A stretch of 35,175 bases of DNA from Nitrospirae bacterium RIFCSPLOWO2_02_FULL_62_14 (GCA_001805245.1 MHEU01000075.1:9672-44846), one strand, 5' to 3'. Positions 2,415 to 15,408 are shown, counted from the stretch's first letter. Numbers and translations: made by a program. Notes: generated by a model from the letters alone, not told the origin.

Positions 2415-3509
2415 ATGCTGCATCGAATGGCGTTGCGCGTGCTCCCATCGTTGGCGCTGGCGGTGACGGAAGAATCGGTGCGCAAGCGCAAGCGATGGGT
2501 GATGTTCGTCCCCGGGCTGGTGGCCTTTGCCATCTATCGTCTGGCGAAGCAGATCCTGCCGCTTTCGGATTCGGTCACGCTGCTGGTCGTGAGCGGGTTG
2601 GTCTCGGCTGCCACGGCGGCCTGGGCTTATCGGATGGGACGCCAGGCATCTTTCGTCCAAACGTGGCGCGAGGACGGCGTGCGACGAGTGCTCTGGTTGA
2701 TCGGATGGATCGGCTTTGCCTACGGCGTGCAATTGTCCCTGATGGTGCTGGCGCTTCTGAAAATTCTTGCCAATTACGATTTTCTCCAGCATCCGGACGG
2801 GCCGGCCATGATGGCGATCATCATCGCCTGCACCTCGGTCGCGCGGGATGCCTTCGAGATCGGCCATGTCCGTCTGTTGCAGCGGCAGGGCGAGCCGGTC
2901 GTGACATTTCCGGACGGCGCCGGTTTCAGGGATGCCGTGATGGCTCAAACCGGACAGATGGCCCGGTGGGCGTTGCTCCCGTCGATTGCGTGCGCGACCG
3001 TGGCGGTTGCTCTGGGCACGGTGCATGATCTGGCTGCGACGGGGTTGGCCCAGTTGGTGCTGGTTACGGTCTGCGCCGGGAGCCTGGCCGTGTGGGCCTA
3101 TCTATCCGGCGAGCAACGGCCGGGCGGGTGGCATGGCATGTCGGGCGCGGCCGGCTGGATGGAGCTGTTTCGCTATTGGTGGTGGCCGGGTCTGGCCTTT
3201 GCGGCGACCTATTATCTCTCCTGGGCCGGATTGATATTCTTCGTCGTGCATGCCGACGTGAGCGGCAGTGTTGTGCGGGGGGGGATTGCCGGTGCTGTCG
3301 CCGCCATGATGGCGGCCTATTGTTATTATCTGGGGCACCGCCGGCATGTGGAAAATCAGCTCAAGCAGATTGTCCCGCCTTCCCTGTTGCGCTGTCCGTT
3401 TGTGATGGGTATTCTGTCGAAGCAATCGGCCTTCGGGCGGGGCGGGCCGCCGCCGGCCGCGATGGCCGCAGTCACCTCTCCGACGATCGTTGCAGGAAAG
3501 CACAGCTGA
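2415..3509 (+). CDS. Polytopic membrane protein of unknown function
   Basis: A 364-aa protein with about eight hydrophobic segments (residues ~31-47, 54-72, 94-117, 130-144, 181-199, 204-224, 253-278, 284-306). I do not recognise a family. A soluble-looking loop ('DAFEIGHVRLLQRQGEPVVTFPDGAGFRD') lies in the middle, and the C-terminus (residues ~315-364) is basic and proline-rich. It starts two bases after the PCP_red stop and ends seven bases before the CydA-like start at 3517, so it belongs to the same transcript and may be an accessory subunit or assembly factor for that complex. This role is inferred from position only. Confidence 0.7.
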   Translation: MLHRMALRVLPSLALAVTEESVRKRKRWVMFVPGLVAFAIYRLAKQILPLSDSVTLLVVSGLVSAATAAWAYRMGRQASFVQTWREDGVRRVLWLIGWIGFAYGVQLSLMVLALLKILANYDFLQHPDGPAMMAIIIACTSVARDAFEIGHVRLLQRQGEPVVTFPDGAGFRDAVMAQTGQMARWALLPSIACATVAVALGTVHDLAATGLAQLVLVTVCAGSLAVWAYLSGEQRPGGWHGMSGAAGWMELFRYWWWPGLAFAATYYLSWAGLIFFVVHADVSGSVVRGGIAGAVAAMMAAYCYYLGHRRHVENQLKQIVPPSLLRCPFVMGILSKQSAFGRGGPPPAAMAAVTSPTIVAGKHS

Positions 3510-3516
3510 TCGCACG

Positions 3517-5406
3517 ATGATCCGCAGATGTTCCAAATCAGTTGCAGGGGCGGCGCTGGCTGTCGTGCTGGCGCTGCTCGTGATTCCGTTCGGTGCCGCG
3601 ACTCTGGCCGGGAGCGATTCGGGACCGGCGGATGAAACGGCAACCGACGTGTACTACCAGACGCCGGGCGTGCCCAGCGGCCCGCCGGCGCCGGTCGGTG
3701 ATCCGTTGACCTATCCCCGGTACGGTTCGCTGGACAATCGCACGTTCGTCTGGTTCGTCACCCAGCAGCACACCTATTTCGGCGGCTTCGTGCTCGCGCT
3801 GCCGATCTTCTGCGTCATTCTCGAATTCGCCGGGCTCGTCACGCGCAACCGCGCGGCGGCGGTGCGGTACGACCAGACGGCCCGCGACTTTCTGCGCGTC
3901 ACGCTCCTGGCCATGTCGCTGACGGCGGTGGTGGGGAGCCTGATGCTGGGGCTGTTCATCTGGTTTTATCCGAGCTTCATGAAGTACATGGGCGGGACCT
4001 TCAAGACGATGATGCCCGTCTATGCCTTCATCTTCAACGCGGAAGCCCTGTGCCTGATCGCGTACTATTACACCTGGAACCGCCTGGCGACGCCGGCGCT
4101 GAAATGGTGCCATGCGGCGCTCGGCATCCTCTGCAACGTCTTCGGCGCGGTGCTGCTGTTTCTGGCGAACAGCTGGATTGCCTTCATGATGTCGCCGGCC
4201 GGTGTGGATGCGCAGGGCCGCTTCCTGGGCAACGTGTGGCACCTGATGCACACGGCGCTGTGGAACCCGCTCAACGTGCACCGGTTTCTCGCGGACATCA
4301 TGTCCGGCGGAGCCGTGGTGTTGGCCTACGCGTCGTACCGGTTCCTCACGAGCAAGTCGGAAGAGGAGCGGGCCTATTACGACTGGGTCGGGGCGGTGTT
4401 TCTGATCGTGACGGTGATCGCGCTGCTGCCGATGCCCTTCGCGGGCTACTGGCTGATGAAGTCGGTCTATGCGTTCCGGCAAAGCATGGGCGTGACGATG
4501 ATGGGCGGCCTGCTGACGTGGCTGTTCGTCGTGCAGGCGCTCCTGATCGGCGTGCTGTTTCTCGGCATCAATTATTATCTCTGGCAATGCATGGGGCGGT
4601 TGCAGGGCGGGAAGCGGTATGAACAGGCCTATAAATATCTCGTGCTGGGACTCACGGGCTGTCTCTTCGTCTGGCTCACGCCACATACGGTCATGATGAC
4701 CGGAGGCGAAGTGAAGGCGATGGGCGGCGCCCAGCATCCGGTGGTCGGCAATTACGGGGTGATGTCCGCCAAGAACGGCGCGGTGAACCTGATGATCTGC
4801 CTGACGGCCCTGAGTTACATCTTCTACCGGCGCGCGAATCGCACGATCACAGTGTCCTGGGCGCGGAAGGGCAACACGGCGCTGGCCGTGCTGTTCGGCG
4901 CCGGGATGGCGAATATTCTCTGGCTGGCCATCTATGGGTTCTACGTGCCAGCCAGCGTGCGCGTGGGCCTTTCGTCGCCGCAGGCCTTCACGACGCTCAC
5001 GGTGGTCGTGGCCGGGTTGCTGATCAACCGCGCGTTGCTGCGCGGCGCGGTCGTGCACGGCTCGGTGGTCTGGGGAAAAATGTCCGTCCGGGGCATGGTC
5101 GCGCTCTTCGGGCTGGCGGTCTCCTTCACATGGGTCATGGGGCTCATGGGCTATATCCGTTCATCGGGCCGGCTGGCCTGGCACGTCAGCGAGCTGATGC
5201 CCGATGCCTCGCCCTGGGCCTACACGCCCACGCTCGCCTTCGCGGCCAAGATGGTGACGGTGAACATGGTCGTGTTCTGGACGACGGCGCTGCTGCTGTT
5301 CTGGCTCAGTAGCCGCGATCAGCGCTCGCTTCCCGAAATGGACCCGGCGCCGGAGAACCAGCTGCTGTTTCCCCCGCCGTCGCAACAGGAGACGCAGCCG
5401 TCATGA
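3517..5406 (+). CDS. Cytochrome bd-like (CydA-like) oxidase subunit, first paralogue
   Basis: A 629-aa membrane protein with a cleavable-looking leader (residues 1-32), a periplasmic stretch with 'DVYYQTPG', and about 13-14 membrane segments. 'TQQHTYFGGFVLALP' (His ~85) sits where CydA has its first haem-ligand histidine; 'LANSWIAFMMSPAGVD' and 'LWNPLNVHRFLAD' (His ~255) resemble the CydA 'NGWMQNPVG' and second ligand region. CydA is normally ~450-520 aa and paired with CydB; no CydB follows here. A second, longer-operon paralogue at 9124 shares most motifs ('NYGVMSAKNG', 'GLMGYIRSS'). Nitrospira literature has proposed such bd-like proteins as terminal oxidases. The ATG at 3517 is chosen because it begins the basic leader; an in-frame TTG at 3490 would overlap the upstream gene. 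Confidence 0.85.
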   Translation: MIRRCSKSVAGAALAVVLALLVIPFGAATLAGSDSGPADETATDVYYQTPGVPSGPPAPVGDPLTYPRYGSLDNRTFVWFVTQQHTYFGGFVLALPIFCVILEFAGLVTRNRAAAVRYDQTARDFLRVTLLAMSLTAVVGSLMLGLFIWFYPSFMKYMGGTFKTMMPVYAFIFNAEALCLIAYYYTWNRLATPALKWCHAALGILCNVFGAVLLFLANSWIAFMMSPAGVDAQGRFLGNVWHLMHTALWNPLNVHRFLADIMSGGAVVLAYASYRFLTSKSEEERAYYDWVGAVFLIVTVIALLPMPFAGYWLMKSVYAFRQSMGVTMMGGLLTWLFVVQALLIGVLFLGINYYLWQCMGRLQGGKRYEQAYKYLVLGLTGCLFVWLTPHTVMMTGGEVKAMGGAQHPVVGNYGVMSAKNGAVNLMICLTALSYIFYRRANRTITVSWARKGNTALAVLFGAGMANILWLAIYGFYVPASVRVGLSSPQAFTTLTVVVAGLLINRALLRGAVVHGSVVWGKMSVRGMVALFGLAVSFTWVMGLMGYIRSSGRLAWHVSELMPDASPWAYTPTLAFAAKMVTVNMVVFWTTALLLFWLSSRDQRSLPEMDPAPENQLLFPPPSQQETQPS

Positions 5407-6488: not shown

Positions 6489-7418
6489 GTGAGCATGGAG
6501 AATAAGAATGTGCTGATCGGGTCGATCATTTTTGTCTTCGCGTCGTTCGCGCTGATGATCGGGCTGCTGGTTCACGAATCATATAAAGCAAAGAAGCAGC
6601 GCGAGCTCCTGGCGTCGGTCAAGACGGAACATCGGCCGGTGGCTGCGGTCGCGGCACAGGACTTTTCGATGTATAAGATATTGGTGGGGGACGAAGGCCG
6701 CGAAATGGTCCAGATTCCCGAAGGGCCCTTCACGATGGGAAGCCCGGAGGGCGATCCAGACGAGGCGCCCGAGCATCAGGTTTATCTCAAGACGTTTTAT
6801 ATCGATAAGAAGGAAGTCACGCAAGAGGAATACGATCGGTTCCTTCGGATGACCAAGCGGCAAAAACCGGGGTTCCCTGTGTTCGAAGACGACCAGTCGA
6901 AAATCCTGAAACCCGAGCTGCCTGCGATCGGCGTGTCGTGGTCGGACGCGGAAGCCTATTGCAAATGGGCGGGCAAGCGGCTTCCGACCGAGGCGGAATG
7001 GGAGAAGGCCGGCCGCGGCGAGGGGAAGCGACGCTATGCCTGGGGCGACGAGTTCGTGCCCGGTCAGGCCAACGTGGACGGCAGGGAGGACGGGTTTCAA
7101 TATCTTGCCCCGCCCGGCGCCCTCGAGGCCGGGCGAAGCCCGTACGGCGTGTACGATATGACGGGCAATGTCGCCGAGTGGGTGGCGGACAGCTATGACG
7201 AGCACTACTACAAGAAGGCGCCCTATCGCGATCCTTCGGGACCGGAAGAGGCGGACCTGAAAGTCATTCGTGGCGGGTCCTGGCGCGAAACGTCGCACAA
7301 TGCCCGGCTGTCAAAACGGTTTACGGCAAAGAAATGGCGGACCGACAGCACGATCGGCATCCGGTGTGCGCGCGACGCGGAAGAGTCGAAGCGCGCGCCG
7401 TCACGGAAAACTTCCTAA
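6489..7418 (+). CDS. Membrane-anchored SUMF1/FGE-like protein, first copy
   Basis: A 309-aa protein with one N-terminal transmembrane anchor (residues ~8-28) and a periplasmic FGE-sulfatase (SUMF1) domain from ~65 to the end. Diagnostic motifs: 'MVQIPEGPFTMGSPEGD', 'YIDKKEVT', 'PAIGVSWSDAEAYCKWAGKRLPTEAEWEKA', 'YGVYDMTGNVAEWVAD', 'VIRGGSW' and the terminal 'IGIRCA'. True formylglycine-generating enzymes carry a cysteine pair near the C-terminus; here the segment between RGGSW and RCA has no such pair, so a catalytic role in sulfatase activation is doubtful and a structural or binding role is more likely. Start is GTG 6489 or ATG 6495, both after AGGGAAAGGGGAAAGG. A second copy lies downstream at 7634. 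Confidence 0.85.
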   Translation: MSMENKNVLIGSIIFVFASFALMIGLLVHESYKAKKQRELLASVKTEHRPVAAVAAQDFSMYKILVGDEGREMVQIPEGPFTMGSPEGDPDEAPEHQVYLKTFYIDKKEVTQEEYDRFLRMTKRQKPGFPVFEDDQSKILKPELPAIGVSWSDAEAYCKWAGKRLPTEAEWEKAGRGEGKRRYAWGDEFVPGQANVDGREDGFQYLAPPGALEAGRSPYGVYDMTGNVAEWVADSYDEHYYKKAPYRDPSGPEEADLKVIRGGSWRETSHNARLSKRFTAKKWRTDSTIGIRCARDAEESKRAPSRKTS

Positions 7419-7448
7419 GTACGACAGGTTGTTGGCCCAGGAATTTCG

Positions 7449-7626
7449 CCCGGATTATTCATGAACGCTTCTGCTGCAATCGCGGATACGCTGCTGCGAC
7501 GGACGGGCTCGCCGCTCGGTCAGTCAACGTCCTGCGGTGAGGACGCCTCCTCCCCTCACGGCTCCACGCGTCCGTCTCGCGACGCGTCTGCGCGATTTCG
7601 CGACGAACCGTCATAAACAATCCGGG
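7449..7626 (+). mobile_element. MITE-like repeat element with terminal inverted repeats, copy 1
   Basis: This 178-bp stretch fills most of the gap between the two SUMF1-like genes. Its two ends are diverged inverted repeats of ~58 bp: the left begins CCCGGATTATTCATGAA and the right, read on the minus strand, begins CCCGGATTGTTTATGAC, with shared GCGA-rich continuation to ACGGACG. The interior has a 6-bp hairpin (CGTCCT / AGGACG). The same layout occurs inverted at 16155-16484, and its right end recurs at 35139. A 51-codon open frame (7461-7616) spans it but its end is not conserved in copy 2. No transposase is encoded. Confidence 0.75.
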
Positions 7627-7633
7627 CTTGGCC

Positions 7634-8560
7634 ATGATCGAAACCAGATTCAAAATTGCGATGCTCGTGGTGGTGACGATCTTCGCCAGTTTCCCGATCA
7701 TGGGTATTCTGCGCGGGACCAGGCTTCCACCGGTCGAGCCGGATCTTCCGGAAGCGCCCGTCGCCGGTGTGCAGACGCCCGGTGCCAATGAGCTTCCAAC
7801 CGACGAGGCGATGGTCGGCATTCCTGCCGGACCGTTCATGCGAGGAACGATTGCCGGCGGGTTCGACGAACAACCGGTGAAATCGATCCATCTTGACGCC
7901 TACGCGATCGACAAATACGAAGTGACGAACCACCACTATGCCGCGTTCGTCGCGGCGACCAACCATCGCAAGGCCGGTCCGCCGTCCCGCTATGCGAAGA
8001 ACATGTCGCGCATGCGCAGCATCAACCAACCGGTCGTGTACGTGTCATGGGACGATGCCGATGCGTATTGCCGATGGAAGGGGAAGCGGTTGCCGACTGA
8101 AGCCGAGTGGGAAAAAGCCATGCGGGGAGGCGACAAGCGTCTCTGGCCGTGGGGAAACGGCATCGATCCGTTGGCATCCAATTGGGCCGTGGCGCAGGAT
8201 GGCCACGAGGTGGCGGCGCCGGTGGGGTCGTTCCCGCGCGATGTGAGCCCGTTCGGGGTGGCCGATGGTGCGGGCAACGTCATCGAATGGGTGGCTGATT
8301 GGTACGGCGAGAATATCTACAGCGATTCAACCGACAGCAATCCGAAGGGACCTGAATTCGGGACGTTTAAAGTGCTTCGAGGAGGCGGGTATACGACATC
8401 AGGAACAGATGTCCGCGTGACCAGCCGAAACAAAATGGTGCCGGATTTTCGGGATGAAACGATCGGCTTTCGGTGCGCTGTTTCAGGCGGTCAGAACAGG
8501 GATTTCCCGCGGGCGGCGAAGTCGGAAAAAGTCACAGGAAATCAAAGTAGTAGAGAATAA
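7634..8560 (+). CDS. Membrane-anchored SUMF1/FGE-like protein, second copy
   Basis: A 308-aa paralogue of the protein at 6489, with an N-terminal anchor (residues ~6-26) and a SUMF1 domain from ~58: 'MVGIPAGPFMRGT', 'YAIDKYEVTN', 'PVVYVSWDDADAYCRWKGKRLPTEAEWEKA', 'FGVADGAGNVIEWVADW', 'VLRGGGY', 'TIGFRCAV'. As in the first copy, the cysteine pair of authentic formylglycine-generating enzymes is absent. I choose ATG 7634; a TTG at 7628 is in frame. There is no convincing Shine-Dalgarno because a repeat element was inserted just upstream (7449-7626), which may have split this gene from its original leader. Its 3' end is overlapped by a possible small gene on the opposite strand. Confidence 0.85.
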   Translation: MIETRFKIAMLVVVTIFASFPIMGILRGTRLPPVEPDLPEAPVAGVQTPGANELPTDEAMVGIPAGPFMRGTIAGGFDEQPVKSIHLDAYAIDKYEVTNHHYAAFVAATNHRKAGPPSRYAKNMSRMRSINQPVVYVSWDDADAYCRWKGKRLPTEAEWEKAMRGGDKRLWPWGNGIDPLASNWAVAQDGHEVAAPVGSFPRDVSPFGVADGAGNVIEWVADWYGENIYSDSTDSNPKGPEFGTFKVLRGGGYTTSGTDVRVTSRNKMVPDFRDETIGFRCAVSGGQNRDFPRAAKSEKVTGNQSSRE

Positions 8561-8636
8561 GAAATACGGCTAAAATTATATTGACAACCATGCCGGCCAA
8601 AACTATAATGTCGAACGTTTTCGAGTTTTTTTCCAT
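8532..8636 (-). CDS. Candidate 34-aa single-pass membrane protein (antisense)
   Basis: On the minus strand an ATG at 8636 opens a 34-codon frame ending in TGA at 8532. The product has a charged start (MEKNSKTFD), a ~20-residue hydrophobic helix ('IIVLAGMVVNIILAVFLILYY') and ends FDFL, which is a plausible small membrane subunit. A GAGGG lies ~8 bases before the ATG. It overlaps the end of the SUMF1-like gene by 29 bases and, on the other strand, contains a perfect sigma70 promoter, so either the frame is fortuitous or the two functions share the same DNA. Confidence 0.4.
   Translation of the reverse strand: MEKNSKTFDIIVLAGMVVNIILAVFLILYYFDFL
8581..8609 (+). promoter_or_regulatory. Perfect consensus sigma70 promoter of the respiratory operon
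   Basis: TTGACA (8581-8586), a 17-base spacer and TATAAT (8604-8609) match the sigma70 consensus at all twelve positions and ideal spacing. Transcription would start near 8616 and give a ~104-base leader before the 38-aa gene at 8720. The next clear terminator is at 15372, so the transcript would cover the two small proteins, the CydA-like subunit and three cytochromes c. Confidence 0.8.
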
Positions 8637-8719
8637 CTCTATGCCCTCTATGTGCGCGCAAGCGCCGTGAGCTTTAACATAGGGATGAGAAATCTGTCAA
8701 CACACGTTAAGGAGATATC

Positions 8720-8836
8720 ATGGAATCGGCACAGAATGACTATCAGATCAAGCTCGGCAAGATGATTTTTTATATCACCTGTGCGGTGAGCCTCTGGTTC
8801 TTCTACTGGTTCAACGGCATTCAGTGCCCATGCTGA
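8720..8836 (+). CDS. 38-aa single-pass membrane protein (CydX-like position)
   Basis: A short gene with an excellent ribosome-binding site, AAGGAG seven bases before the ATG. The product has a polar N-terminus (MESAQNDYQIKLGK), one hydrophobic, aromatic helix ('MIFYITCAVSLWFFYWF') and a C-terminal 'NGIQCPC' with two cysteines. It is the first gene after the consensus promoter and sits 37 bases before another small membrane protein and then a CydA-like subunit. Small single-pass subunits such as CydX stabilise bd oxidases; by position and topology this could have the same role, although its sequence is not that of CydX as I know it. Confidence 0.7.
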   Translation: MESAQNDYQIKLGKMIFYITCAVSLWFFYWFNGIQCPC

Positions 8837-8873
8837 TCCGTCCTCTATTCTTTTCTGCCAAGGGAGTCACGCA

Positions 8874-9080
8874 ATGATTGTCACGAATCCGCTGTTTTGG
8901 TTTGCTCTTCTGGCCATCGGTGTTGTCCTGTTGTTTGTCGGGAAAAAGATGGACCTCTTGAATAACACGGCCTATGCCGCGGTGGTGTCCGTTGTGATCG
9001 TGGTCGCCTATTTTCACATTGTCGATCACTACCTGATGGAAATGCAGGGATTGGATTACTGGTATCTTTTCAGAAAATAA
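8874..9080 (+). CDS. 68-aa two-helix membrane protein
   Basis: A small protein with two hydrophobic helices (residues ~5-23 and ~33-52) separated by a short basic loop ('GKKMDLLNNT'), and an amphipathic aromatic tail ('YLMEMQGLDYWYLFRK'). It has an AGGGAG Shine-Dalgarno nine bases before ATG 8874. It lies between the 38-aa gene and the CydA-like gene, 43 bases before the latter, in the same predicted operon. I recognise no named family; a subunit of the bd-like complex is the natural inference. The His in 'FHIVDHY' (two histidines) lies at the end of helix 2 and could ligate a cofactor. Confidence 0.75.
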   Translation: MIVTNPLFWFALLAIGVVLLFVGKKMDLLNNTAYAAVVSVVIVVAYFHIVDHYLMEMQGLDYWYLFRK

Positions 9081-9123
9081 CATCCGGACTTAATATTTCG
9101 AGACGGTTGTAGGGAGGTATACC

Positions 9124-11058
9124 ATGGGTCGTCAAAACGGAAAGAAGATATGGTCGATCATGGCGCTCGGCGCGATGATGGCCATCCTTCTTCTGCCGGT
9201 CGCCACTTCGCTGAACGCGCTTGCAAGCGGAGGGGGCGAGGCGCCGCCGGCTCCCGCGGTTAAGGCGGAAGGGGACAAGAAGGATGAGGCCAAGGTCGAG
9301 AAGGGGCGCGATGTCTATTATAAGACCGAGGGGATCGTGGCCGGTGCCCCGGCCCCGAAAACGACGGACGGTACGAAGGACTATCCTCGCTATAATTTTG
9401 AGAGCCGGGTCCTCCTGTGGTTTGCCAACCAGCAGCATCTCTACTATGGAAGCTTCGTCCTCGCGGTGCCCATCTTCTGCATGATCATTGAGTTCATGGG
9501 GGTGGTGACCAAGGACAAGGCGATGGCCAAGAAATACGATCAGCTGGCCTACGACTTCATTAAAATCAGTCTGACAGCCTACTCGCTCACGGCCATCCTG
9601 GGCGGCATCCTGATCTTTACCTTCCTGACTCTGTATCCTGCATTCTTCGGTTATCTCTCCAGCATCTTCCGTCCGGTCATGCACATTTATGCGCTGATGT
9701 TTGTGGCTGAGAGCGGCACCCTCTACATTTACTATTATGGATGGGACAAGATGAAGGAGGGGCTCCTGAAATGGATTCACTTGAGCATGTCGGTGATCCT
9801 GAACGTCATTGGAACTGTGCTGATGATGCTGGCGAACTCCTGGATCGGGTTCATGATGTCCCCGGCCGGCGTGGATGAGCAGGGTCGCTTCCTGGGGAAT
9901 ATCTGGCACGTCATTCATACGGCGCTGTGGAATCCGCTGAACGTGCACCGCATCCTGGGCAACATGGCCTTTGGCGGCGGTGTGGTGGCGGCCTATGCGG
10001 CCTATCGCTTCCTCTCGGCGAAAACCGATGAAGAGCGCGCCCATTATGACTGGATGGGTTATATCGCGATGGCCCTCGCTGTTGCGTTCCTGATCCCGCT
10101 GCCGTTTGCCGGGTACTGGCTGATGCGTGAAGTGTATGCCTATCGTCAGCAGATGGGGATCACGCTCATGGGCGGCTTGCTGGCGTGGCTCTTCATCATT
10201 CAGGCGACGATGATCGGTATTCTGTTCCTGAGCACCAATTATTATCTCTGGCAGGCGCTCGGGCGGATGCGCGGCGCTGAAAAGTATCAGCGGTACATCA
10301 AGTACCTGGTATTCGTGCTCGTCGTCGGATTCCTGGTGTTCATCACGCCGCATACGATGGTGATGACGCCCGCGGAGTTGAAGGCGATGGGCGGCCAGCA
10401 GCATCCGGTGCTGGGGAACTACGGCGTCATGTCGGCTAAGAACGGCGGCATCAACGTGATCATCACGACGACGGTGTTGAGTTTCGTCTGGTACATGCGC
10501 GGCAACAAGGAGCCGATGGTGCCGTGGAAGAAGTTCGGGAACATCTTCATGGGGACGTTCTTCGGCCTTGCCTATGTCAATATCATCTGGCTCGCCATCT
10601 ACGGTTACTACATTCCTGCAAACGTGCGCGTCGGGTTGTCGGTGCCGCAGGTGGCTACGACGTTGTCGTGTCTGTTCTTTATGACTGCCTTGAACGGCGT
10701 CATGCTGAAAGGCGCGAAGCAGATGGGGCCGATCGAATGGGGCAAGATTTCGGCCAGGTCTCAATATGCCATCATCATGCTGGCGACAGCGTTTACCTGG
10801 ATGATGGGACTGATGGGCTACATCCGGTCGTCGGTCCGGTTGTTCTGGCATGTCAATGAAATCATGCGCGATAACTCGCCCTGGGCCTATACGCACACGG
10901 TGGGGTTTGCGGCCAACATGATTTCGTTCAACGTGCTGTTCTTCTGGGTCAGCATTTTGTTCGTTTTCTGGCTTGGAACATTGGGAGCCAAGAAGGCGCC
11001 CGTCGAAGCCAAGGCGCATGCGCCTGGCCGGGTGCCCGAACCTGCGCACGGACATTAA
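9124..11058 (+). CDS. Cytochrome bd-like (CydA-like) oxidase subunit, second paralogue
   Basis: A 644-aa membrane protein with leader (residues ~9-35), a charged Ala/Pro/Lys linker (36-62) and ~14 membrane segments. 'NQQHLYYGSFVLAVP' (His105) and 'LWNPLNVHRILGN' (His275) align by context with the two haem-ligand histidine regions of CydA; 'LANSWIGFMMSPAGVD' (237-251) resembles CydA 'NGWMQNPVG'. Later conserved blocks 'PHTMVMTPAELKAMGG', 'QQHPVLGNYGVMSAKNGG' and 'GLMGYIRSSVRLFWH' are shared with the paralogue at 3517. The C-terminus ends in a His/Pro tail. AGGGAGG precedes the ATG by six bases. There is no CydB; instead three cytochromes c follow, which points to a complex taking electrons through c haems rather than a standard quinol oxidase. 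Confidence 0.88.
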   Translation: MGRQNGKKIWSIMALGAMMAILLLPVATSLNALASGGGEAPPAPAVKAEGDKKDEAKVEKGRDVYYKTEGIVAGAPAPKTTDGTKDYPRYNFESRVLLWFANQQHLYYGSFVLAVPIFCMIIEFMGVVTKDKAMAKKYDQLAYDFIKISLTAYSLTAILGGILIFTFLTLYPAFFGYLSSIFRPVMHIYALMFVAESGTLYIYYYGWDKMKEGLLKWIHLSMSVILNVIGTVLMMLANSWIGFMMSPAGVDEQGRFLGNIWHVIHTALWNPLNVHRILGNMAFGGGVVAAYAAYRFLSAKTDEERAHYDWMGYIAMALAVAFLIPLPFAGYWLMREVYAYRQQMGITLMGGLLAWLFIIQATMIGILFLSTNYYLWQALGRMRGAEKYQRYIKYLVFVLVVGFLVFITPHTMVMTPAELKAMGGQQHPVLGNYGVMSAKNGGINVIITTTVLSFVWYMRGNKEPMVPWKKFGNIFMGTFFGLAYVNIIWLAIYGYYIPANVRVGLSVPQVATTLSCLFFMTALNGVMLKGAKQMGPIEWGKISARSQYAIIMLATAFTWMMGLMGYIRSSVRLFWHVNEIMRDNSPWAYTHTVGFAANMISFNVLFFWVSILFVFWLGTLGAKKAPVEAKAHAPGRVPEPAHGH

Positions 11059-11084
11059 TCCTCGGTCAATTTTTTGATTCTGTT

Positions 11085-11115
11085 GGTCTCGCCCCCGCTC
11101 GGCGGGGGTGGGACC
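11085..11115 (+). promoter_or_regulatory. Intercistronic GC hairpin before the cytochrome c genes
   Basis: A 7-bp perfect stem (CCCCCGC, loop TCG, GCGGGGG at 11092-11108) extends outward by GGTCTC/GGGACC pairing to about 13 bp. It is not followed by a T-run, and a strong Shine-Dalgarno begins a few bases later. It is more likely a transcript-processing or translation-control hairpin than a terminator. Confidence 0.55.
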
Positions 11116-11130
11116 GAGGGAGGGTGTGAA

Positions 11131-12426
11131 GTGAAAGAGTTGCTCGTATCAGCGCTGGGTATGGGGTGGGGGGTGCTGGCGGTCCTGGCCGGATTGCTGG
11201 TCTATCACTTCACCAAGGGGAACAGGGACGGGGCCTTTAAAGTCTTTATCGGCATGCTCGCCACGCTCATGATCTTCATGGCGATCGCCAATTATAAGAA
11301 CAATTTCTTCGCGGAATCCCGCTTGCTGCCGGTCTCGCTGGTGCTGATCACCGCGACGACCTTCATGATGGCGCTCTATTTTTCCAATGTCAGCGCGCTC
11401 CTGAAGATCGGCGGGTTCATGTTCCTTGTGGCTGCGGCGCTGTCCGGATACGGCAACTGGCTGCCGCAGGTCGAGGGCGGGTTTCCCCCGAAGGAAGAGA
11501 AGCTTCAGTTTGACTCGATGACGTCGCAGCAGTTGGCCGACGAGGGCGAGAAGATCATATTCGGGGGCATCGGGCAGAGTTCCGTGCAGGGTGCGATCGG
11601 CAAGGGGCAGTGCCCTTTGTGTCATGGTTTCCAGAAGGGCTTCCTGAGCGAGCGGGCGCCGAACCTGTTTGGTCTTCCCGAGCGAGCGGAGAAGGAGCGG
11701 CTGACGGATCCGAACTACCACAAAGGTGAGCCGCAGAAGCGTGCATACGCTGACAAGGAAGCGTGCCCCGGGTGCGGGACCGCGACGACGGTGCAGGAAT
11801 ACATCGCCGAGTCGCACGCCTGTCCGAACTGCTATGTGGCGGCCGGATTTGGCGTGAAGGGCACGAACGACAAGGAAAGCCCCATGCCGAAGATTCACAA
11901 GCCACCGATATCTCTGAGCCTGCCGGAGCTGGCGGCGGTGGATACGTGGCTCTATGTCCGCGAGGGCAAGGAGCCGCCGTCATACGAAGACATTATCAAG
12001 TCCTACGAAAAGTTCATTCTGGAAGCGGATCGGCCGAAGCAGCAGGATGATAAGGCTGCCGGTCCCACGCAACTGCTGGCGGATGGCACGGAGCCGGTCG
12101 ATCAGATCTTTGCCAAGGCACAGTGCGTGGTGTGCCATACCATCCCGGGGATTCCCGGCGCAACCGGCACCCAGGGCCCCAAGCTCGAAGAGGGGACGAA
12201 CGCACCGAATCGTATCCACGATTCGGCGTATAAGGGCACGGCCAAGACGACTCCCGACTACATCATGGAGTCCATTGTTTCGCCGAGCTCCTATGTCGTG
12301 AAAGGGTTTCCCGATAACCTGATGCCGAAGATATTCGGTCAGAAGCTGAGCGCGGGCGCATTGAAGAAAATCGTCGATTATCTGTCTCAGGTGAAAGCGG
12401 GCGCGCCGCCACCGAAGATTTCATAA
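11131..12426 (+). CDS. Membrane-anchored dihaem cytochrome c with a CxxC-CxxC insert
   Basis: A 431-aa protein starting at GTG 11131, seven bases after GGGAGGG; earlier starts would run through the hairpin. Four N-terminal helices (residues ~6-25, 37-53, 66-84, 92-107) anchor a periplasmic domain. Two c-haem sites are seen: CPLCH (161-165) and CVVCH (332-336), each in a cytochrome c-like fold with 'MPKI' methionines downstream as possible axial ligands (252 and ~395). Between them is a CPGC...CPNC pair (212-215 and 231-234) without the haem histidine, which looks like a zinc-ribbon or a second metal site. It follows the CydA-like gene and probably passes electrons to or from it. Confidence 0.85.
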   Translation: MKELLVSALGMGWGVLAVLAGLLVYHFTKGNRDGAFKVFIGMLATLMIFMAIANYKNNFFAESRLLPVSLVLITATTFMMALYFSNVSALLKIGGFMFLVAAALSGYGNWLPQVEGGFPPKEEKLQFDSMTSQQLADEGEKIIFGGIGQSSVQGAIGKGQCPLCHGFQKGFLSERAPNLFGLPERAEKERLTDPNYHKGEPQKRAYADKEACPGCGTATTVQEYIAESHACPNCYVAAGFGVKGTNDKESPMPKIHKPPISLSLPELAAVDTWLYVREGKEPPSYEDIIKSYEKFILEADRPKQQDDKAAGPTQLLADGTEPVDQIFAKAQCVVCHTIPGIPGATGTQGPKLEEGTNAPNRIHDSAYKGTAKTTPDYIMESIVSPSSYVVKGFPDNLMPKIFGQKLSAGALKKIVDYLSQVKAGAPPPKIS

Positions 12427-12460
12427 TGACCGTTCCTAGCGCATCAAAGGGAGTGAAGAG

Positions 12461-13513
12461 ATGAAAGCAATAATGTCAGCGGCGGCAGTGGTGGGGGTGA
12501 TTGCATCGCTCCTCCTGCTGGGCATGATCTTCGGGGTCGTCAAGGCCGACACCGTGCACCTGGTGGAAGGCTACATGCCCATGCAGATGATCTTCGAGTT
12601 GGCCATCTTCGTGGCGGGTTTCACGGGACTCAGCTACATGCTGAATTCGATGGGGATGGCGATTCCCCGGTTCTGGCAGGGGATTGGCTTCGTTGCGTTT
12701 ATTCTGTTCTACCTCAAGTCTCGTGTCTATCCGCCCATTCCATTCAGCGTCCGGGCCATGTACGGCACAGTCACGATGGTGGCCGTCTTCATGTGGATGT
12801 CCAGCAACGAGGAGGATTGGAAGAAATTCCGGCAGCCGATCCTCAATGTGATGGATGCAGCGACGCCTAAACTCAAATTGATCCGGACCCTCTTCTTGAT
12901 TGCAATCCCGGTCGCTCTCTGGGGATTCTCATACCAGTCCTTCGTTCCGCAGGGAGCGGGTGCCGATGTGGATGAGCCGATCGAGCTGCGGACCGTGCAT
13001 CCGGCTCCGCCGGCCAGCACGAAGGTGCACGGGAAGACCTTCGTCTTGCAGACCTCGCAGAACCCGTATCGGGTGAACCCGGAAGGCAAGTACGATCAGG
13101 AATACAGCAACAAGCTCATCGTTGAGCAGGCGATGGGCCGCTTGATGCAGGCGAATGCCAATCCGTGGGATGAAAAGGCGGAAGGTTATCTGAAGAACGT
13201 CCGTGAGGGCGGCGAGATTTTCTTCCAGAACTGTCACTTCTGCCACGGCGACAACCTGAACGGCAGAGGGCTGCATGCCTTTGCGTTCAACCCGATTCCG
13301 GCGAATTTTACCGACCCCGGAACGATCGCCCAGTTGCAGGAGACGTTCATCTTCTGGCGCGTGTCGAAGGGGGGCCTCGGCCTTCCCCGCGAAGGGTTCC
13401 CCTGGGCCTCGGTCATGCCGCCCTGGGAACAGCACCTGACGACCGACGAAATCTGGAAAGTCGTGCTCTTCGAATATTGGCACACAGGCTATTATCCGCG
13501 GACGTGGGATTAA
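12461..13513 (+). CDS. Membrane-anchored monohaem cytochrome c
   Basis: A 350-aa protein with about five N-terminal helices (residues ~5-27, 42-61, 72-86, 99-114, 141-160) and a periplasmic cytochrome c domain. The haem site is CHFCH (258-262) followed by 'GDNLNGRG'; 'ASVMPPWEQHLT' near the end supplies the likely axial methionine. AAGGGAG precedes the ATG by seven bases. It lies 34 bases after the dihaem cytochrome and 33 before the EB_dh-type cytochrome in the same operon. The membrane part has the same length scale as that of the preceding protein, suggesting related architecture. Confidence 0.85.
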   Translation: MKAIMSAAAVVGVIASLLLLGMIFGVVKADTVHLVEGYMPMQMIFELAIFVAGFTGLSYMLNSMGMAIPRFWQGIGFVAFILFYLKSRVYPPIPFSVRAMYGTVTMVAVFMWMSSNEEDWKKFRQPILNVMDAATPKLKLIRTLFLIAIPVALWGFSYQSFVPQGAGADVDEPIELRTVHPAPPASTKVHGKTFVLQTSQNPYRVNPEGKYDQEYSNKLIVEQAMGRLMQANANPWDEKAEGYLKNVREGGEIFFQNCHFCHGDNLNGRGLHAFAFNPIPANFTDPGTIAQLQETFIFWRVSKGGLGLPREGFPWASVMPPWEQHLTTDEIWKVVLFEYWHTGYYPRTWD

Positions 13514-13546
13514 TCCCGCATTCAATTGGTGAAGGGGTATAACACC

Positions 13547-15346
13547 ATGAAGCAAGCTGGGTTGACGAGTAAAGCGGTCCTGATTCTCGCGGCTGCATTC
13601 GCGGTCACGATGGTGTCGGGGAGCGCCGGGGTTTCGATCTTCGCGCAAGAAGGCGGGAGCGGGCTACCGGCAGGGTTCAAAAAGGGTGAGCTGGCGCCGT
13701 TGCCTTCGGCTGAGATGATCGAGGCCGGGAAGCGCGTCTATTTCACCAAGTGCGTGTGGTGCCATGGCGTCGATGGTGCGGGTGACGGCCCGGCCGCCGA
13801 CCGCCTCTGGCCGCGTCCGAGAAACTTCAATCAGGGCACCTTCAAGATCCGCCATACGGCAAGCGGTGAGTTGCCGCTCTTCGATGCCAAGAAGCCGGTC
13901 AATGGGCAGAACGACCTCTTTGAAACGGTCACCCACGGCCTGCCCGGTTCGGCGATGCCGTCCTGGGAAGGCATCCTGACAGACGAGCAGCGGCAGCAGG
14001 TCCTGTCCTTTGTGACCTCCCAGTTGGTCAAGGATCGGAAGTTCGACGACAAGGCGACGGAAACGCAGACCGTGCTCAACTGGGATGAGCTTATGAAGAC
14101 ACAGGTCAAGTATAGCCCGGAGAGCATCGAGAAGGGCAAGCAACTCTTCCTCGACAAGAAGTGCATCGAGTGCCATGGTGCTGAGGGCCGCGGCGACGGC
14201 AACGCGTTCAACCTGAAGGATGACTGGGGCTTCTCGATTCAGCCGGCTGACCAGCGCAAGTGTTGGAACTTCAGAGGAAGCCGTCAGGATCCCTACAACG
14301 TCAAGAACATCTTCCGGACGTTCTCCACGGGTGTGAACGGCACGCCGATGCCGTCATTTGCCGACAACACGACGGTTGAAGAGCGGTGGCACATCGCCAA
14401 TTTCGTGCAATCGCTGTGCGAGCGGGATGCGAAGGGCAATCCGCTGGAAATCGATCCGCTCACGGACAAGCCGAAGGTCAAGTTTGTGATCCTGTCCGGA
14501 ACCGTGGAGGGCGAAATCCCGGACGATCCGGAGAACGAGTTGTGGCAGAAGCGGGAGCGCCGCATCGTGCTGCTTGCCGGACAGATTACGCACAAGCCCA
14601 GGAATTTCGTCAATCGTATCGACGATGTCTGGGTCAAGTCGCTGTACAGCCAGAAGGAAAAGCAGATTGCGTTCCTGTTCCAGTGGGATGACCGGACCAA
14701 GAGCGTGGCCAAGGAAGCCGGAACCAAGATTCCCTGGCAGCCGACCGAAGTGAACGTGGAAACGCATGGCGTGAAGGAACAGGCCCCCAAGACCGGCGAG
14801 GAAGGGTCCATCGCGGCCAACCAGAACAAGTTCCCGGTGTATAACGATGCCTTTGCGTTCCAGTTCCCGGTCAAGTGGCAGGAGCTGCCGCCACCGGAAA
14901 AACCGCGGTATCTGTGGGGCGACGAGAAGTACCCGGTCGATATCGTGAAGTGGGAGGCGGACGGATCGTTGCGCGCCTTCGCGGGAACCGGCTGGGACAA
15001 GGATTTCGAAGACCGTGATGACTACACGGAAAGACTGAAGCTGGCGAAAGCCGAGTGGAAGGACGGCCGGTGGAGCCTCATCATCAAGCGGCCCCTCAAG
15101 GCTGATTACGATGAGGACGTGAAGTTCGAGGTCGGCAAGTACATCCCCACGGTGTTTTTTGCGTGGGATGGTCACAACGGAGATGCCGGTCGCAAGATGG
15201 CCGTCTCCGCGTTCTACTACCTCGTTCTTCAGCCGCCGATTCCCAAAGAGACCTATATCTATCCGACCTTGATCGCGGTGGGTATCGTGATCCTGGAGGG
15301 ATGGATTCTGACGAGACGGGCCAATCGTAAGAAGGGCAAGGTCTAA
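13547..15346 (+). CDS. Dihaem cytochrome c fused to an ethylbenzene-dehydrogenase-type haem-binding domain
   Basis: A 599-aa protein. A signal sequence (residues ~8-33) is followed by two cytochrome c domains with CVWCH (69-73) and CIECH (206-210), both in the 'CHG..G.GDG' context, with 'MPSW' and 'MPSF' as likely axial methionines. Residues ~300-575 resemble the EB_dh family, the b-haem gamma subunit of DMSO-reductase-type enzymes such as ethylbenzene dehydrogenase and the candidate NxrC of nitrite oxidoreductase ('FQFPVKWQ', 'KWEADGSL', 'WSLIIKRPL', 'FFAWDGHNGD'). A single C-terminal helix (~575-592) anchors it. ATG 13547 is chosen, with AGGGG nine bases upstream; TTG 13526 is in frame. Last gene before the terminator. 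Confidence 0.87.
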   Translation: MKQAGLTSKAVLILAAAFAVTMVSGSAGVSIFAQEGGSGLPAGFKKGELAPLPSAEMIEAGKRVYFTKCVWCHGVDGAGDGPAADRLWPRPRNFNQGTFKIRHTASGELPLFDAKKPVNGQNDLFETVTHGLPGSAMPSWEGILTDEQRQQVLSFVTSQLVKDRKFDDKATETQTVLNWDELMKTQVKYSPESIEKGKQLFLDKKCIECHGAEGRGDGNAFNLKDDWGFSIQPADQRKCWNFRGSRQDPYNVKNIFRTFSTGVNGTPMPSFADNTTVEERWHIANFVQSLCERDAKGNPLEIDPLTDKPKVKFVILSGTVEGEIPDDPENELWQKRERRIVLLAGQITHKPRNFVNRIDDVWVKSLYSQKEKQIAFLFQWDDRTKSVAKEAGTKIPWQPTEVNVETHGVKEQAPKTGEEGSIAANQNKFPVYNDAFAFQFPVKWQELPPPEKPRYLWGDEKYPVDIVKWEADGSLRAFAGTGWDKDFEDRDDYTERLKLAKAEWKDGRWSLIIKRPLKADYDEDVKFEVGKYIPTVFFAWDGHNGDAGRKMAVSAFYYLVLQPPIPKETYIYPTLIAVGIVILEGWILTRRANRKKGKV

Positions 15347-15371
15347 TAATCCTTCTACGGTGGGGAACCAC

Positions 15372-15408
15372 AAAAGGGGGTGGGGAGACCCACCCCCTTT
15401 TCTTTTTC
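15372..15408 (+). terminator. Strong intrinsic terminator of the respiratory operon
   Basis: A perfect 13-bp stem (AAAAGGGGGTGGG at 15372-15384, loop GAGA, CCCACCCCCTTTT at 15389-15401) is followed by CTTTTTCT. It begins 25 bases after the stop of the cytochrome c/EB_dh gene. Confidence 0.92.

Follow-up and report, generated by a model that had tools for sequence, protein, structure and literature searches.

By what routes do nitrite-oxidizing bacteria with a periplasmic nitrite oxidoreductase (NXR) deliver electrons to oxygen and drive them uphill to quinones? This question is open in the field, and it is raised by an operon in a 35,175-nucleotide stretch of DNA from Nitrospirae bacterium RIFCSPLOWO2_02_FULL_62_14 (GCA_001805245.1 MHEU01000075.1:9672-44846; hereafter the window, part of contig C75). 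The host genome (2.66 Mb, 95% complete) is of the Nitrospira type, and its nearest named relatives are Nitrospira. The operon belongs to an already known cluster, the bd-like oxidase and alternative NxrC cluster of Nitrospira, Nitrospina and anammox bacteria. Our best reading is that it encodes an OR-N-type ('bd-like'), cytochrome c-coupled membrane respiratory complex that lacks CydB, and this complex is a leading candidate for one of the two jobs. Oxygen reduction driven by cytochrome c is, in our view, its most likely reaction, ahead of reverse electron flow, although we put it a little short of an even chance.

A CydA-like subunit encoded without CydB

The operon, with its promoter and terminator, spans 8581-15401, and its genes (8720-15346, plus strand) encode, in order, a 38-aa protein, a 68-aa protein, a 644-aa CydA-like protein, a 450-aa dihaem cytochrome, a 350-aa monohaem cytochrome and a 606-aa protein with an EB_dh domain. 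As a preliminary description of this DNA had proposed, the genes are bracketed by one promoter, a sigma-70-type site (TTGACA-N17-TATAAT, 12/12 match, 8581-8609), and one intrinsic terminator (13-bp stem, 4-nt loop and T tail, 15372-15401). That description also listed the CydA-like protein, the cytochromes and the EB_dh domain correctly, and passed over the two small membrane-protein genes at 8720-8836 and 8874-9080.

The open reading frame at 9124-11058 matches the Pfam family Cyt_bd_oxida_I (PF01654; E = 1.7e-15), and an NCBIfam search returned no CydA-type name for it. Its AlphaFold2 model has 14 long helices (pLDDT, a per-residue confidence measure, 62.7; pTM, its whole-fold counterpart, 0.62), the first of which (residues 2-35) could be a cleaved signal peptide. 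The model matches solved CydA chains best (Z 23-27); next come ActF of alternative complex III (Z 18.9-19.8) and, lower, PsrC (Z 12.9). The family match, the model and the fold matches together bear out the 14-helix CydA-like protein first described. Because the AlphaFold2 models in this study are of moderate or low quality, we make no claim about haem geometry.

Aligned with Escherichia coli CydA, the protein keeps the equivalents of H19 (H105), H186 (H275) and E107 (E196), and a profile search against solved structures confirmed the N-terminal half of this alignment. Across the CydA-like proteins of the phylum, H105, H219, H275, H410 and H576 (and H427) are near-invariant, so the two candidate haem histidines originally counted become five to six; H105 is invariant throughout the clade of the operon copy. 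If the helix order follows CydA, then H105, H275, H410, H427 and H576 would all lie on the periplasmic side. An exception is the deep clade L152-L154, in which an nxrA-like gene stands beside the CydA-like gene, H105 is Met and H410 is Arg. That clade, at least, therefore has an altered haem set. Where the Q-loop would be, after the sixth and before the last CydA-type helix, the model has additional helices. Of the hallmarks of canonical CydAB, the CydA fold is thus present, and the CydB partner, the full ligand set and a Q-loop with quinol residues are missing.

The absence of CydB extends to the whole genome, in which no match to PF02322 was found. The CydA-like protein does not stand alone, because a second CydA-like gene (3490-5406, plus strand; 638 aa, around 50% identical) lies in a separate upstream cluster of the window. 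The genome holds four CydA-like genes in total, two in the window and two on contig C50, in agreement with the four bd-like oxidases of N. moscoviensis (PMC6606698). Our tree separates the window pair from the C50 pair, and the paralogous cluster on C50 has the same order: CydA-like, cytochrome c, cytochrome c, EB_dh. The paralogue at 3490-5406 is a possible CydAA' partner; an obligatory pair is unlikely, given that just one CydA-like gene is present in a class-level relative (G131) and in each of ten deep Nitrospirota genomes. The host genome likewise contains no member of the COX1 family. Should the organism be aerobic, as its kinship with Nitrospira suggests, its oxygen reduction must therefore rest on at least one of the four CydA-like copies.

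Cytochromes and an NxrC-like protein

Downstream of the CydA-like gene are a dihaem c-type cytochrome (11074-12426, plus strand; around four N-terminal transmembrane segments; CxxCH at residues 180 and 351), a monohaem c-type cytochrome (12461-13513, plus strand; several N-terminal transmembrane segments; CxxCH at 258) and an alternative NxrC-like subunit (13526-15346, plus strand; CxxCH at 76 and 213, an EB_dh domain and a C-terminal transmembrane anchor). The three membrane-anchored cytochromes with 2+1+2 CxxCH motifs that had been read from the sequence are thus confirmed, and the motifs are kept in every orthologue above 60% identity (109/109 for the 450-aa, 76/76 for the 350-aa and 73/73 for the 606-aa protein). 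The 450-aa cytochrome also carries, between its haem sites, a pair of non-haem CxxC motifs (CPGC and CPNC, starting at residues 231 and 250; residues 231-253, window 11764-11835). C250 and C253 are invariant in orthologues above 60% identity, and the first CxxC pair is not.

The 606-aa protein matches EB_dh (PF09459) above the cut-off and TIGR03477 only below its cut-off, and has a sequence match to 6h5l_B. Its model (pLDDT 54, used for the fold match alone, which agrees with Pfam) resembles EbdC (2ivf_C) and subunit C of the Kuenenia NXR (7b04_C). The haem-b domain that had been proposed is therefore present as a fold. We take the axial haem b ligands of EbdC to be Met and Lys; here the Lys is kept (K557), and the Met position is Gln or Glu, with Gln also found in the host's own NxrC. 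Haem b binding by this domain is plausible and as yet unproven.

Two small membrane proteins encoded first in the operon

The operon opens with a single-transmembrane protein of 38 aa (MESAQNDYQIKLGKMIFYITCAVSLWFFYWFNGIQCPC; 8720-8836, plus strand) and a protein of 68 aa with one or two transmembrane segments and the C-terminal motif VDHYLMEMQGLDYWYLFRK (8874-9080, plus strand). The first precedes the CydA-like gene in 112 of the 115 loci at family and order level, and the second type is present in 109 of the 115. Both are absent from three loci (L046, L100 and L111), all of which have hardly any sequence upstream. The median omega, 0.046 for the 38-aa and 0.14 for the 68-aa protein, shows that these are real coding genes under strong purifying selection. 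Many relatives whose CydA-like protein is 49-66% identical have likely counterparts ahead of that gene, recognized by visual inspection of position, length, hydrophobicity and end motifs, and the 68-aa motif D..LMK.QGL is recognizable in phylum-level relatives.

Neither protein matches a Pfam or NCBIfam family, and neither database places the 38-aa protein in the CydX family. A survey of CydX reported it, within Nitrospirota, only in Leptospirillum (PMC4325964). We found no mention of the two proteins in the main text of the publications on the cluster cited here. Conserved and under purifying selection, both are candidate accessory subunits of the complex.

A conserved promoter

The promoter TTGACA-17-TATAAT is perfect in all 109 orthologous loci scored, and in 110 orthologous loci (all those at family and order level with enough upstream sequence) the hexamers are identical, the spacer nearly so and the flanks conserved. 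The host genome holds just five perfect sites of this form, and when the spacer is included in the pattern, the operon promoter is the only genome site within three mismatches. Around 85 bp surrounding it (window 8541-8640), the 17-nt spacer included, is nearly identical in the 110 loci. Conservation of the spacer suggests a regulator or an unusually strong promoter. In N. moscoviensis grown on nitrite, the orthologous cluster ranks within the 40 most highly transcribed genes (PMC6606698), in agreement with a perfect, conserved promoter.

The module is not tied to nitrite oxidation

The four-gene module of the CydA-like protein, two cytochromes and the EB_dh protein is syntenic across the phylum, in a gene order without CydB in all relatives. 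In these comparisons, the lineage names of class- and phylum-level relatives are inferences, and gene absence in draft genomes may reflect gaps. In nine genomes of the same class and other orders that carry the CydA-like gene (94-99% complete), no nxrA match was found at E = 1e-100. Within the order Nitrospirales (family and order level, host included), 47 of the 56 genomes have a match, and nxrA of the other nine, among them the host, was probably lost in assembly. The host gene was not found, and contig C3 ends just beyond NxrC- and TorD-like genes (L168, 18012-19899), where the missing nxrA is probably a collapsed repeat; a first nxrA candidate on this contig proved to be a radical-SAM gene and its neighbours.

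Given that the nine relatives without detectable nxrA carry the module, it is not specific to nitrite oxidation, and we reject the idea that it is an exclusive partner of NXR. This fits with manganese-oxidizing Nitrospirota, which have bd-like clusters and no nitrification genes (PMC9040806). One of the nine, the class-level relative G131 (96% complete), has a single PF01654 gene, that of the module, and no match to COX1, so that the module is its only detected oxygen-reductase candidate; this favours oxygen reduction by the module. Ten deep Nitrospirota genomes each have a single CydA-like gene, all with COX1 homologues, indicating that the module is also kept where another oxidase exists.

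Oxygen reduction or reverse electron flow

From these data we infer an assembled complex that receives electrons on its periplasmic side. Domain content and conservation give good support to periplasmic entry by way of the NxrC-like protein and the anchored cytochromes. From the NxrC-like dihaem/EB_dh protein and the two anchored c-type cytochromes, electrons would go on to haems that histidines of the CydA-like subunit hold near the periplasmic side. The complex would probably be completed by the two small membrane proteins, much as canonical bd oxidase is by CydX. Oxygen would be reduced with cytochrome c electrons, and nitrite, via NXR, would be the usual donor in the host organism. The preliminary description had envisaged electron exchange with periplasmic c cytochromes, by an oxygen reductase supplied from nitrite oxidation or else by a module for reverse electron flow. 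Phylum-wide synteny and the order of the paralogous cluster uphold the exchange; the link to nitrite is not exclusive, as the nine relatives show.

Several observations argue for an oxygen reductase: the CydA fold, the retained equivalents of H19, H186 and E107, the histidines in common with the presumptive terminal-oxidase copy, the paralogous cluster of equal order, the lack of CydB and COX1 in the genome, the G131 case and the high transcription. Related bd-like complexes in manganese-oxidizing Nitrospirota have likewise been treated as terminal oxidases (TO_1; PMC9040806). All histidines kept by both the presumptive terminal-oxidase copy and its class-level relative are also in the operon copy. 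As a criterion for or against oxygen reduction, retained histidines failed, being common to all CydA-like copies, and sequence alone cannot decide the acceptor. Published Gln and Phe replacements were not reproduced with the sequences of the host genome.

Other points weigh against oxygen reduction. In the E. coli alignment, Leu563 occupies the position of the haem b595 ligand E445 and Ile188 that of E99, and M393 falls in a gap, with no counterpart found; the presumptive oxidase copies likewise have no equivalents of the three. The bd-like protein of the cluster has been reported to lack a pair of ligand residues presumed necessary for a haem-copper-like site (PMC8026999), the cluster has been reported in strictly anaerobic anammox bacteria (PMC3578206), and the host genome has a further cluster, on contig C50, which the literature favours as the terminal oxidase. 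Moreover, in the ten deep genomes with COX1 the CydA-like protein is not the sole oxidase.

The strongest competitor, a serious one that we nevertheless consider less probable, is a reverse-electron-flow module that uses electrons from periplasmic cytochrome c or NXR, together with the proton motive force, to reduce the quinone pool, as an alternative complex III running backwards. Such a role has already been proposed for the cluster (PMC6606698, PMC3578206). It would explain why deep relatives with haem-copper oxidases still retain the module, and it accommodates class members without NXR as well as the manganese-oxidizing Nitrospirota, which also use a high-potential donor and carry bd-like clusters. 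The second-best fold matches, ActF and PsrC, point the same way, although this NrfD-type helical-bundle resemblance may only reflect a common arrangement. Reverse flow is disfavoured by the lack of both the Q-loop and the known quinol-binding residues (PMC3578206), with the extra helices of the model where the loop would be. In addition, no alternative quinone site was identified, and the ligand equivalent to H19 does not vary anywhere in the clade of the operon copy.

A bolder form of this idea, which we regard as less likely than not though worth stating, is that a bd-fold protein has ceased to have oxygen as its main job and, with five c haems and two small subunits, drives electrons uphill to quinones. 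If true, it would be a new kind of complex III common to nitrite oxidizers, relatives without nxrA and anammox bacteria.

Considerably less probable is a docking or conduit role, in which the alternative NxrC would bind NXR at the membrane and the remainder would relay electrons to soluble cytochrome c. The resemblance of the 606-aa protein to NXR subunit C and EbdC, and the nxrA-like gene that adjoins the CydA-like gene in three deep Nitrospirota genomes, are in its favour; nine out of nine same-class, other-order genomes carry the module without detectable nxrA, and a docking platform would have no need of a conserved 14-helix haem subunit. Finally, a canonical quinol-oxidizing cytochrome bd whose CydB gene was lost in assembly has the CydA family match to recommend it and can be dismissed, given the replaced E445 and E99, the missing M393 counterpart, the genome-wide absence of CydB and the CydB-less gene order in all relatives.

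Neighbouring genes

The second CydA-like gene of the window has neighbours of its own. A DUF420 membrane protein (1108-1824) adjoins it, in a genome without COX1; we take DUF420 to be the CtaM family, a maturation factor of haem-copper oxidases. A 162-aa protein (1924-2412) with one CxxCH and two stretches that match PCP_red (the C-terminal domain of the 57-kDa protochlorophyllide reductase) is conserved beside it, and a family-conserved 364-aa protein with multiple transmembrane segments and no accepted family match (2415-3509) overlaps its start. Directly 5' of the operon are two formylglycine-generating-enzyme-like (FGE-sulfatase) proteins (6489-8560), at least one of which occurs at the same site in most relatives of the same class and other orders.

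Comparison with known systems

One study found the cluster to be conserved in Nitrospina, Nitrospira and Kuenenia, reported 14 helices, retention of the haem b ligands, a Q-loop replaced by three helices and a lack of quinol residues, and proposed a role as an alternative complex III (PMC3578206). The cluster was later described again and discussed as a possible terminal oxidase (PMC8026999), so that both roles, oxygen reductase and reverse electron flow, are already in print (PMC6606698, PMC3578206, PMC8026999). By published descriptions rather than by sequence, our operon and the Nitrospina and anammox cluster have in common a 14-helix CydA-like protein that keeps the haem ligands in its N-terminal half and has helices where the Q-loop would be, with c cytochromes and an alternative NxrC encoded alongside; the published haem counts per cytochrome are slightly different (PMC3578206, PMC8026999).

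The closest known system is the N. moscoviensis/Nitrospira bd-like_3 / alt_NxrC_2 cluster (PMC6606698), a label that we assigned from the published description and not from locus tags. The N. moscoviensis locus (L068) is syntenic over the whole region, with equal gene order and a second CydA-like copy nearby, and its proteins are 89% (CydA-like), 75% (dihaem cytochrome), 79% (monohaem cytochrome) and 73% (alternative NxrC) identical to those of the operon. N. moscoviensis has two canonical CydAB besides, whereas the host genome has none; otherwise, nothing essential differs.

CydA-like proteins of this kind have been placed in the OR-N family (CydAA'), which comprises CydA-like proteins without CydB, co-encoded with c cytochromes, in Nitrospirota, and whose activity is still unproven (PMC12342949, PMC10839748). 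The host operon is alike in gene content. It also resembles, possibly without being orthologous, the TO_1 complex of Ca. Manganitrophaceae, a bd-like protein with a periplasmic cytochrome b in organisms without nitrification genes (PMC9040806). By contrast, the ActB-type iron-sulfur and NrfD-type ActC/ActF Pfam domains of alternative complex III are not in the operon, and only the ActF fold resemblance connects the two.

To these descriptions our analysis adds the list of near-invariant histidines, the two small proteins, the conserved promoter, the NXR-less relatives and the G131 case. The comparison thereby sharpens the question of how electrons leave nitrite oxidation: the module is untied from NXR and viable with a single CydA-like gene, its candidate ligands are listed, and its small proteins are worth seeking in purifications.

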